A stretch of DNA of 64,000 nucleotides from a virus. Under the pieces are notes generated by a model. It had not been told where the DNA came from. It saw nothing but the letters and a program-made list of their open reading frames with translations, and ran no database searches. Made by a program: the position numbers and the translations under genes. Location: positions 1-64,000 of the IMG/VR virus record IMGVR_UViG_3300036831_000148. One strand, written 5' to 3'. Shown here piece after piece: positions 46,299 to 54,294 of the stretch (its first letter is position 1; every line of letters starts with the position of its first letter).

Positions 46299-47591
46299 TC
46301 AGCTAACGGGCGCGCCGACCAGCTCCAGGAACCCGTCGTTAACGAACTGCGTCGGGCCGAGGTAGGTCTTCCCGTTGGCATCCGACGCCACCGGGAACGC
46401 GGTCCACGCCGGGTTGCTGTAGAAGGTGCCGTGCGTCTCGGTGCCGCCCGGCAGGACAGAGTTGCCGTCAGCCAGGGTGTGGCTGAAGCCCTCCAGCTCG
46501 CTCGGGTCGGTGTTGTGGCCGTTGTACGGGTACGGCGGGGTGCCGCTCAGCGGGATGACCGTCTGGGTGTCGGCGATGGCGCCGGCGTCGGCCTCGTTGA
46601 ACGTCTTGCCTGGAATGGACACGCCGTTCTGGTAGCTGACGCCGGGGGCGCCCAGGTCGGTCGCGGAGAAGATGATCGTGCCCTGGGCGTACACGTGCCC
46701 GTGGAAAGTCGGGTGCGGGTTGGCCGCGTCGTAGAGGATGTCCAGGTCAACGGAGTTGTTGTCCGGGATTCCCGCCTTCAGCACGTCAAAGGTCGCGCCG
46801 GGGGTGTGCGCGGCCTTGAGCCAGGAAACCGACGGCACGGTACCGGCGGGCGGCTGCGGGGTACCTGCCGGCACCGTGAGAACCGAATTGACGTTGGCGC
46901 TCGTGCCCAGTTCGAATGTCGTGACACCAGACTTCACCACAGTGAAGTGGAACGTCTGGTTAGACGGGCTCGGGTGGATCGTGAACGTCGGCGACAGCAT
47001 CACGCCACCTGCAGGAATGGCCCCGCCGGGGATCACAACCGTTACCACAGCGCCAAGCGGCGGAGTCGGGCCGCTCGTCACGGTCAGGTTCGGAGACCCG
47101 GCCGTGTACGAGAGATCCGTGACCTCGTGCGTGAAGCTGAACCCGCTCGCCGAGTTGAGGCCGCTCGGGTTGACGATGCCGCCCTGGCACAGGTCGCTGT
47201 TGTTGCCAGCGGCAAGGTAGCCGGTGGCGTCTACCACGTCCATCAGGCCGCCGCCGACGTATACCAGCCCGATCTGGGCGGCCTGGCCGGTTCCCTGGTT
47301 GCACAGCCCGATGCCCGCCGCGCCGCCGATGCTCACGGTGCCGGTCACGGACGACACCGGCAGTTGCTCGATTGAGTGCTGGCCGTCCCCGCCGACCCGG
47401 CTCGCCAGGTGCGTGAAGTTGATGCTGTCGTTCTCGGCGTGGGCGTAGTAGCCGGAGATCGAGTCAGCGCCCGCCGGCGTGTACTGGACGGGGCCAACGC
47501 TGGCGCTCGCGGAGGCCGCAGCAGCCAGGCCGGCGCCCGCCACCAGGACGGGTACCGCAATGGCGGCAGCAAGCCGCCTGCCAATCTTCAT
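46299..47591 (-). CDS. Secreted protein with Sec signal peptide, 430 residues
   Basis: ATG 47591 has AGGAG seven bases upstream. The N-terminus (MKIGRRLAAAIAVPVLVAGA, then GLAAAASASASVGP) is a classic signal peptide with cleavage near residue 31. The mature part is beta-rich, Gly/Asn/Thr-rich, with GYYAHAENDSINFTHLASRV, GIGLCNQGTGQAAQIGLVYV, WLKAAHTPGATFDVLKAGIP and NPHPTFHGHVYAQGTIIFSA, and at least two Cys. It looks like a host-type extracellular protein rather than a virion part. It has its own leader and terminators on both sides (47692-47725, 46245-46280). Possible roles include superinfection exclusion or host modification; function unknown. Confidence 0.75.
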   Translation of the reverse strand: MKIGRRLAAAIAVPVLVAGAGLAAAASASASVGPVQYTPAGADSISGYYAHAENDSINFTHLASRVGGDGQHSIEQLPVSSVTGTVSIGGAAGIGLCNQGTGQAAQIGLVYVGGGLMDVVDATGYLAAGNNSDLCQGGIVNPSGLNSASGFSFTHEVTDLSYTAGSPNLTVTSGPTPPLGAVVTVVIPGGAIPAGGVMLSPTFTIHPSPSNQTFHFTVVKSGVTTFELGTSANVNSVLTVPAGTPQPPAGTVPSVSWLKAAHTPGATFDVLKAGIPDNNSVDLDILYDAANPHPTFHGHVYAQGTIIFSATDLGAPGVSYQNGVSIPGKTFNEADAGAIADTQTVIPLSGTPPYPYNGHNTDPSELEGFSHTLADGNSVLPGGTETHGTFYSNPAWTAFPVASDANGKTYLGPTQFVNDGFLELVGAPVS

Positions 47592-47842: not shown

Positions 47843-47845
47843 AAG

Positions 47846-51608: not shown

Positions 51609-51613
51609 CCGAG

Positions 51614-51686
51614 CTGGGCGACAGGGACTTGAACCCTGACCCGCGGGACCATAACCCGCTGCTCTGCCGTTTTGAGCTAGCGCCCA
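51614..51686 (-). tRNA. tRNA with anticodon ATG (His codon reader by rule)
   Basis: Stem GCGGG/CCCGC is perfect and the loop TTATGGT gives anticodon ATG. T-loop TTCAAGT, discriminator G. A34 in a His tRNA is abnormal and the His discriminator C is absent, so identity is uncertain. Acceptor mismatch at 7-66. Confidence 0.65.
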
Positions 51687-52050: not shown

Positions 52051-52100
52051 AGGCCTCCGGGCGTTTGCCCCCGCGCAAGCGCTTACGGGGGTTATAGGCA

Positions 52101-52189
52101 CCGGAGGTTGCGGTTGCTCTGGGCCACTGAGCTACCGGACGCCCCTTCCAGGGAGACCGGGCGGGATTCGGACCCGCGACCTTCCGCTG
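52101..52189 (-). tRNA. Candidate circularly permuted tRNA gene W
   Basis: A 3' half (52189-52153: GCGGA anticodon-stem strand, variable AGGTC, T-arm GCGGG-TCCGAAT-CCCGC, acceptor CCGGTCT) precedes a 5' half (52141 downward: CGTCCGG, TA, D-arm GCTC-AGTGGCCCA-GAGC, A26, ACCGC, then the loop start AACCT). The halves pair 4/5 in the anticodon stem and 5/7 in the acceptor, and are joined by a CCC/GGG hairpin. It directly follows tRNA-Gln(CTG). Confidence 0.4.
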
Positions 52190-52512: not shown

Positions 52513-52780
52513 TTGAAGCCCGGTGCCCAGCCCGCTCCCCCTGCCGTCCGGACTCGAACCGGGAGGTGCGCACCCTTGCTGGTAACCACTCGCCTGAGAC
52601 CGGGCCGCAGCCCCGCTGGCGGCCGCCAGCGGAGAGCAGGCCGGCCCCGTGCCAGCAGCAGAGGGGGCGGGCTGGGAACCGGGAAGAACAACCCGGACCT
52701 GTTCCGGCCTCACGGCACTTATGCGAGGTGCCGTAGTCTTTTGGCCAGCCGGTTTCCGGGGGCGGTATGCATCCCGCCAG
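52513..52780. other. 268-base gap with degenerate tRNA-like sequence
   Basis: It contains an isolated T-arm-like CCCGG-TTCGAGT-CCGGA (near 52546-52563), a 20-base palindrome (52613-52632) and an ACGGCAC/GTGCCGT hairpin (52712-52734). I could not fold a complete tRNA or find a gene. Confidence 0.45.
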
Positions 52781-53546: not shown

Positions 53547-53620
53547 TCACAGGCGTTCAGACCGCTGAACTACCAGGCCGAAGCCCTCGCCCGGAGTTGA
53601 ACCGGGATTTCCTGCTTGCG
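53547..53620 (-). tRNA. Candidate circularly permuted tRNA gene Y
   Basis: These 74 bases exactly fill the space between tRNA-Pro(GGG) and tRNA-Pro(TGG). The 3' half comes first: CGCAA, GCAGG, AAAT, T-arm CCCGG-TTCAACT-CCGGG, acceptor CGAGGGC, discriminator U. After two bases the 5' half follows: GGCCTGG, TA, D-arm GTTC-AGCGGTCT-GAAC, G26, CCTGT, GA. Joining the ends gives a 5-bp anticodon stem (CCTGT/GCAGG), a 7-base loop GACGCAA (anticodon CGC) and an acceptor with 5/7 pairs (two G-G mismatches). Confidence 0.5.
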
Positions 53621-53893: not shown

Positions 53894-54005
53894 ATGGAGC
53901 CGCATGTTTTACCCAGTCCGGGCGGTTGGAGGCCCGCCGGCTCGTCAGGTTACCTTTTGCCCGGTGATCAACTCCGGAATAGGATGCCTTGCCTGGCATG
54001 CGACG

Positions 54006-54079
54006 TGGAGCTTGCGGGAATCGAACCCGCGGCCTCTGCATTGCGAGTGCAGCGCACTACCAAGCTGTGCTAAAGCCCC
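54006..54079 (-). tRNA. tRNA-Ala(CGC)
   Basis: Acceptor GGGGCTT/AAGCTCC, loop CTCGCAA on CTGCA/TGCAG, T-loop TTCGATT, discriminator A. Confidence 0.92.
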
Positions 54080-54221
54080 AGATGCGGCGCTCTGCCATTG
54101 AGCTACCCGGATCAGTCAGCAGGCCGGCTGCCGGGGCGTTCCGCTACGCGTACTAGCCCGGCGCTCGGCGCCCGCTGCCTTCGCATCTCCGGGACGGGGG
54201 TCGAACCCGCGTCTCCCGCCG
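54080..54221 (-). tRNA. Candidate circularly permuted tRNA gene X
   Basis: A 3' half (54221-54186: GGCGG, variable GAGAC, T-arm GCGGG-TTCGACC-CCCGT, acceptor CCCGGAG, discriminator A) lies directly after tRNA-Ala(GGC). A 73-base spacer follows, then a 5' half (54112-54080: ATCCGGG, TA, D-arm GCTC-AATGGCA-GAGC, G26, CCGCA, TCT) directly before tRNA-Ala(CGC). Acceptor halves pair 6/7 and anticodon stem halves 4/5. The loop is short unless CCA at the end of tRNA-Ala is shared. Confidence 0.45.
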
Positions 54222-54294
54222 TGGAGCCTAGGGGAGTCGAACCCCTGACCTTTTGCATGCCATGCAAACGCGCTACCTGCTGCGCCAAGGCCCC
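54222..54294 (-). tRNA. tRNA-Ala(GGC)
   Basis: Acceptor GGGGCCT/AGGCTCC, stem TTTGC/GCAAA with loop ATGGCAT, T-loop TTCGACT, discriminator A. Confidence 0.88.

Follow-up and report, generated by a model that had tools for sequence, protein, structure and literature searches.

The gap between the tRNA-Ala(GGC) and tRNA-Ala(CGC) genes in the tRNA array of this phage contains a module built from two tRNA halves in swapped order, which is probably a non-coding tRNA mimic of the kind found in the tRNA-like domain of YrlA (bacterial Y RNA-like A), standing free among the tRNA genes and acting as a ligand or decoy. The module has a four-helix tRNA-like fold consisting of a T-arm, a closed acceptor hairpin, a D-arm and an anticodon-end helix open to both termini, and compensatory changes in these helices are present in related phages. 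The same module occurs within phage Y-type RNAs linked to Ro genes and to SCO0854-family genes. The swapped-half arrangement is real, is under selection and is repeated in relatives.

The swapped-half module in the alanine tRNA gap

The window, which is the whole stretch of 64,000 nucleotides analysed here, belongs to a 146,268-base virus record (a soil bacteriophage) and carries an array of 37 ARAGORN tRNA genes, every one of them on the minus strand, between positions 47845 and 54555. Two other features of the array are a tRNA-His called by ARAGORN at 51613-51686, whose anticodon ATG is unusual, and a T-arm-like stretch at 52513-52600 between tRNA-Gly(TCC) and tRNA-Lys(CTT), possibly a degenerate tRNA. 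Elsewhere in the record (L003-L005), there are two predicted proteins with matches to PF24203 (Phage_ProQ_C_like), a family that may bind RNA.

The gap between the two alanine tRNA genes is 141 nt long (54220-54080), opens with a 3' tRNA half and closes with a 5' half. We refer to the swapped-half element at 54221-54080, minus strand in window coordinates, as the Ala-gap module. An earlier note, made from the sequence, had placed a 3' half directly after tRNA-Ala(GGC) and a 5' half directly before tRNA-Ala(CGC), and both the sequence and the coordinates were confirmed. The pairing that it had counted was also reproduced, with six of seven pairs between the acceptor strands ATCCGGG/CCCGGAG and four of five between the anticodon-stem strands CCGCA/GGCGG, so that the helices contain two mismatches. 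Its spacer of 73 bases corresponds to the 74-nt insert in our layout, the extra base having been counted with the 3' half. The loop formed by joining the two halves is indeed only 4 nt long without CCA and becomes 7 nt long (TCTCCAC) when CCA is included, in which case position 33 is a C. Details of the features are presented in Table 1.

Table 1. Coordinates of the Ala-gap module with its flanking genes, of the sister modules and of Y-RNA-like hairpin arrays in related loci (window coordinates unless a locus is named).
Feature	Position	Strand	Remarks
tRNA-Ala(GGC)	54221..54294	-	ARAGORN; Rfam tRNA 64.8 bits; 3' end is the upstream boundary of the Ala-gap module; A73 at 54222; CCA not encoded
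Ala-gap module, 3' half	54194..54220	-	anticodon-stem strand GGCGG 54220-54216, variable region GAGAC, T-arm 54210-54194
Ala-gap module, acceptor 3' strand CCCGGAG	54187..54193	-	pairs 6/7 with 54112-54106; compensated in L010, L015, L048
Ala-gap module, insert (74 nt)	54113..54186	-	caps the acceptor stem
Ala-gap module, acceptor 5' strand ATCCGGG	54106..54112	-	
Ala-gap module, 5' half	54080..54105	-	TA, D-arm 54103-54089, anticodon-stem strand CCGCA 54087-54083, tail TCT (54082-54080) up to tRNA-Ala(CGC)
tRNA-Ala(CGC)	54005..54079	-	ARAGORN; Rfam tRNA 70.9 bits; downstream boundary of the Ala-gap module lies at its 5' end, an expected RNase P site
Module 1	53547..53619	-	between tRNA-Pro(GGG) and tRNA-Pro(TGG); 3-4 nt (TTC/TTCG) connect the acceptor strands; R1 51.1 bits
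Module 3	52110..52187	-	after tRNA-Gln(CTG), followed by a conserved hairpin; R1 64.6 bits; Rfam YrlA 32.0 bits
Y-RNA-like hairpin arrays	L011 6864-7320; L014 4049-4370; L028 1183-1500; L062 8140-8640; L064 7460-7830		motif GGCCAU..CUUCCUUC or UUACUUC; immediately downstream of a 690-750 aa relative of the MXAN_6230/SCO0854 family

The size of the insert is variable, being just 6 nt in the orthologous module of the related locus L010 as compared to 74 nt in the window. The sequence AGTACGCNTNGCGGAA is common to the acceptor-loop inserts of the window (54113-54186), L015 (2552-2567) and L048 (3312-3327), suggesting a conserved internal motif in the large-insert type.

Conservation and covariation in related phages

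Relatives were gathered via the portal protein, giving 50 related loci, many of them with a syntenic tRNA array; a relative search using window positions 46299-47591 found none. With the near-identical loci L031/L032/L034/L035 and L022/L050 counted once each, nine different arrays extend across the Ala(GGC)-Ala(CGC) gap, that of the window being one of them. The module is present in four of these, namely the window, L010, L015 and L048, and the gap is without it in the other five. At L006 2393-2527 and L051 2654-2754, the gap holds another conserved sequence (GAGGGCCGTGACGGGTACCTCAGCGGCGGTTAT...) instead of the tRNA mimic.

The acceptor strands of the four Ala-gap modules differ in sequence yet pair with each other. 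As compared to the 6/7 pairing of the window, the strands pair 7/7 in L010 (GGGCTGG/CCGGTCC), L015 (TGGCCGG/CCGGTCA) and L048 (AGCCCGG/CCGGGCT), each at the syntenic position. Covariation between 54106-54112 and 54187-54193, which the earlier note had named as the way to check its proposal, is thus positive. Modules were also seen in the gap before tRNA-Pro(TGG) (window, L011, L015, the L031 group and L048), after tRNA-Gln(CTG) (window, L010 and L048), in tandem before tRNA-Phe (L021) and between tRNA-Ala(CGC) and tRNA-Pro(CGG) (L051). Some of them do not abut the next tRNA or stand in tandem without one (L021, L048, L010), and many tRNA gaps carry no module at all.

Pairing between the halves was assessed on 23 distinct T-arm-to-D-arm pairs lying outside the ARAGORN tRNAs. 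These were picked blind to the half-half pairing and all were kept, including truncated tRNAs at contig ends. Together they form 203 pairs, whereas reshuffled halves give a mean of 156.4 (sd 7.1) and a maximum of 191, and none of the 20,000 shuffles reaches the observed sum.

For covariation, 21 modules were laid out and 18 trimmed modules were retained (alignment A4), leaving out L048P, which is a near copy of module 1 of the window, and L039 and L011P, whose registers are unclear. A second alignment restricted to the tRNA arrays (A10, 13 modules) is A4 without L011Y, L014Y, L028Y, L047 and Weasels2. Trimmed modules were used in both; a MAFFT alignment with the full inserts misplaced the acceptor strands. 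With the permuted cloverleaf laid on the 18 modules, 90.6% of the cells are paired as compared to 68.4% after shuffling, and both sides have changed in 18 of the 21 pairs. The covariation score is 0.584 against 0.182 for shuffled alignments; it is reached by none of 500 shuffles and drops to at most 0.19 when the partner is slid by one to three columns. The acceptor helix by itself scores 0.795 (shuffled 0.208), and the 13 array modules score 0.476 (shuffled 0.176).

With minimum-energy folding left unconstrained, the permuted cloverleaf is obtained for module 3 of the window, both modules of L010, L031, the alanine module of L048 and L051, and module 1 comes close to it. Other folds are obtained for the Ala-gap module itself, both modules of L015, the Gln module of L048, L021 and the Pro module of L011.

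Sister modules in the same array

Module 1 is located between two proline tRNA genes. Its block is identical to L048 3801-3873 at 72 of 73 bases. In comparison, identity falls to 70.5% and 66.2% in the tRNAs on either side and to 48% and 41% in the flanking gaps. Such identity amid diverged flanks marks the block as a discrete unit, or cassette, whose ends coincide with tRNA ends. An exact pattern search for the block matched one viral contig, that of L048. The third module follows tRNA-Gln(CTG), and the downstream neighbour of this Gln-type module is a hairpin rather than a tRNA in L048, L010 and the window. The hairpin is conserved between the window (52053-52106) and L048 (4790-4845), where the entire gap is 85% identical.

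It had also been claimed that halves from different loci do not pair with each other. This holds for the first and second modules of the window, whose exchanged halves give 4/7 with 3/5 and 4/7 with 2/5 pairs in the acceptor and anticodon stems, but fails for the 5' half of the first module combined with the 3' half of the third, which form 6/7 and 4/5 pairs.

Likeness to YrlA and to protein-linked Y-type RNAs

Y RNAs that mimic tRNAs have reportedly been described by Chen et al. in 2014. With the Rfam YrlA model (RF02553, gathering score 69), module 3 scores 32.0 bits and the Ala-gap module 23.2 bits. Tandem tRNA pairs score 18.7-23.6 bits with the same model and therefore only module 3 stands out. 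The TROVE-linked RNAs of Gordonia phages described below are also under the gathering score (VanLee 47.0 and 33.2 bits, Trax 44.1 bits). The tmRNA model matches only a short fragment here, at 8.9 bits.

Among named phages, blastn with module 3 found the Gordonia phages VanLee, Trax and Neville at 76-77% identity over 65-73 nt; the Ala-gap module and module 1 gave no useful match. In both VanLee and Trax, the match is closely followed by a gene with the annotation 'Ro-like RNA binding protein', and the proteins of the two phages match TROVE (E 8.5e-14 and 5.1e-16). In VanLee (L158 1465-1571), an annotated tRNA-Arg(tct) overlaps the first part of the Y RNA module (R2 71.0 bits) upstream of the Ro-like gene, and this annotation is probably a misannotation.

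Matches of model R1 to Ro-linked RNAs are not independent since R1 included Y-type members; hence model R2 was made of array modules only. The Ala-gap module is matched by R1 only in part (54145-54083, 26.2 bits). R2 gave 71.0, 59.7 and 51.4 bits on the TROVE-linked Y RNAs of Gordonia phages, and 76.2 (L011), 63.7 (L028), 62.8 (L014) and 51.1 bits (Rhodococcus phage Weasels2) on the SCO0854-linked RNAs. The background, given by tandem tRNAs at eight loci without free-standing modules, extends up to 52.3 bits, so that five of the seven protein-linked RNAs are above it and two just below. A UUACUUC/CUUCCUUC motif is present within 60 nt of the module in all seven protein-linked RNAs and in none of the 14 array segments (15 modules). 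A TROVE/Ro gene was found neither in the record nor in any of 14 related records, all of which may be incomplete, and no SCO0854 homologue was found in the record. With the motif absent and no TROVE or SCO0854 gene found, the array modules resemble the tRNA-mimicking portion of a Y RNA that lacks the part which binds protein.

RNAs downstream of SCO0854-family genes

In L011, L014 and L028, an MXAN_6230/SCO0854-family gene is immediately followed by an array, three or four hairpins long, that contains the Y-type RNAs, and one hairpin with a permuted tRNA module is present in each of the L011, L014, L028 and L064 arrays. The L014 gene matches NF041916 (MXAN_6230/SCO0854) with an E-value of 4.4e-91 and 306 bits, which is under the model's own cut-off of 600. 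Six of the 22 records searched contain a gene of this family. In a sensitive search of the L011 array against Rfam, YrlA was matched and none of the other families gave a convincing hit. The protein itself has no Pfam match at the curated cut-off; its AlphaFold model is poor (mean pLDDT 57.7) and gave no PDB match at E <= 0.001.

A scan of bacterial genomes confirmed 234 relatives of the family, of which 80 from Streptomyces and other actinobacteria were kept (L078-L157). The pattern GGCCAT...CTTCC follows the protein match by 21-216 nt in 79 of these 80 homologues and occurs four other times in 625 kb. Alignment of 14 actinobacterial and two phage RNAs reveals a two-part stem with compensated pairs at 7 of 16. 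The RNA downstream of the SCO0854-family gene therefore looks like a conserved and apparently undescribed partner RNA; neither SCO0854 nor MXAN_6230 is named in the literature searched.

Proposed role and alternative explanations

We favour a stem-less tRNA mimic of the YrlA type as the identity of the Ala-gap module. It would be transcribed together with the tRNAs and would be released by the RNase P cut at the 5' end of tRNA-Ala(CGC) together with trimming at the 3' end of tRNA-Ala(GGC). The closed acceptor end would prevent charging and the want of a proper anticodon loop would prevent decoding. By analogy with what has been proposed for YrlA, elbow-binding proteins such as PNPase or tRNA modifying and cleaving enzymes are its most likely partners, for which it would serve as ligand or decoy, perhaps sparing the phage's own set of tRNAs. 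In the YrlA RNA, a basal stem holds Rsr, whereas the tRNA-like domain, which has D, T and acceptor arms, interacts with PNPase and carries modifications made by DusA and TruB (PMC8394870). YrlA has been suggested to be a competitive inhibitor of an anticodon nuclease (PMC7790460). Several observations weigh against this assignment. The Rfam YrlA score of the Ala-gap module does not exceed the tandem-tRNA background, good blastn relatives among named phages are missing for it, its minimum-energy fold is not the permuted cloverleaf and its helices contain two mismatches. Further, no basal Y-RNA stem was seen, no Ro/TROVE gene was found in the record or the 14 related records, and only four of the nine arrays spanning the gap carry the module.

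A more specific scenario, which we put forward only tentatively, is that the tRNA-mimic domain of a Y RNA became detached from the Ro-binding stem and was planted between tRNA genes, where tRNA processing would excise it as a stable decoy for tRNA-directed nucleases or PNPase, thereby protecting the phage tRNAs. If so, the tRNA-mimic half of Y RNAs would be able to exist alone, and phage tRNA arrays would include a component that does not decode and that tRNA finders overlook or misread. This would bear on the role of the tRNA-like domain in bacterial Y RNAs. No description of such modules in phage tRNA arrays was found in the literature searched, which covers part of the field.

The module could instead be a cis-acting spacer of the tRNA precursor, its tRNA-like shape serving to recruit RNase P and other processing enzymes, or to order their action, before the RNA is discarded. 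A tRNA-like fold would be readable by a processing enzyme, and at the Ala and Pro loci the module sits precisely between tRNAs. However, we regard a spacer as unlikely, as the module also occurs away from tRNA arrays, where it forms part of Y-type RNAs next to protein genes, and is dispensed with in many tRNA gaps, including more than half of the distinct Ala gaps (5/9).

The less likely and weaker reading, as compared to the stem-less mimic, is that of a true circularly permuted tRNA gene, which the earlier note had proposed. For such a gene, the anticodon loop would be left with a 3'-OH and a 5'-phosphate once the flanking tRNAs have been processed; a ligase would seal these ends, and RNase P and RNase Z would excise the 74-nt insert to yield a decoding tRNA. 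The swapped halves, their matching acceptor and anticodon stems and the selection upon them stand; both ends of the module abut tRNA processing sites, and inclusion of CCA makes the 7-nt loop. A working gene, however, finds no support. In some array modules the acceptor stem is capped by a short loop, TTC/TTCG in module 1 and GAGA in a module of L010, as it is in the Y-type RNAs of L011 (GAAA) and L014 (TTCG). Capping by a short loop is in itself compatible with a permuted tRNA, as intervening sequences of 1-74 bp have been reported in algae and archaea (PMC3978253). The anticodon-end tails of the sister modules give joins of no constant length and without a constant U33, some modules occur in tandem or without abutting the next tRNA, and the same module is found within Y RNAs beside TROVE/Ro and SCO0854-family genes. 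RtcB was not found in the record, and no RNA ligase, kinase or RtcB is among the Pfam matches listed for 129 of its 155 predicted ORFs; a separate Rnl1 search had a silent control. Known permuted tRNAs depend on a bulge-helix-bulge motif (PMC3978253, PMC4033280), and the available part of PMC4033280 lists no permuted tRNA for bacteria. A working permuted tRNA gene seems quite improbable.

It is very unlikely that the element is a full Y RNA bound by a Ro-like protein from the host or from an unsequenced part of the phage, with the basal stem contributed by other sequence such as the ends of the flanking tRNAs. The module is common to Ro-linked Y RNAs, the record may be incomplete and SCO0854-linked RNAs are present in actinobacteria, but the basal stem motif is absent and the record yielded no TROVE or SCO0854 homologue. 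Finally, the tRNA content and spacing of the array vary between relatives and rearrangement is therefore frequent, yet unselected remnants of tRNA duplication and recombination are hardly credible as its source, being largely refuted by the compensatory changes in four helices, and an origin by chance or from debris is ruled out by the covariation, by the failure of all 20,000 reshuffles to reach the observed pairing and by the sister block that stays nearly identical (72/73) between tRNAs that are 66-71% identical.

Comparison with known systems

Permuted tRNA genes of red and green algae and of Thermofilum resemble the phage modules in having the 3' half upstream of the 5' half with complementary acceptor and anticodon stems, and the 74-nt insert of the Ala-gap module falls inside the size range of 1-74 bp reported for them (PMC3978253). 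In contrast to these genes, the phage modules do not conserve a 7-nt anticodon loop, some are capped by tetraloops, and no ligase was found. The tRNA-like domain of tmRNA is likewise part of a non-decoding RNA with a tRNA fold (PMC8394870), but tmRNA keeps a chargeable acceptor end.

The Y RNAs of the Gordonia phages VanLee and Trax are close in sequence to module 3 (76-77% over 65-73 nt); however, their module sits in an RNA region with the UUACUUC motif beside a Ro gene. The array modules differ from YrlA (RF02553) in that they score below the Rfam gathering score, are without the basal stem or the UUACUUC/CUUCCUUC motif and have no Ro gene found in the record. They are flanked by tRNA genes, their ends coincide with tRNA processing sites and some of them have a large structured insert in the acceptor loop. 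On the other hand, they share with YrlA the same order of parts, from the T-arm through the loop-closed acceptor hairpin and the D-arm to the anticodon-end helix joining both termini, and a model made from the array modules alone (R2) picks up the TROVE-linked examples.
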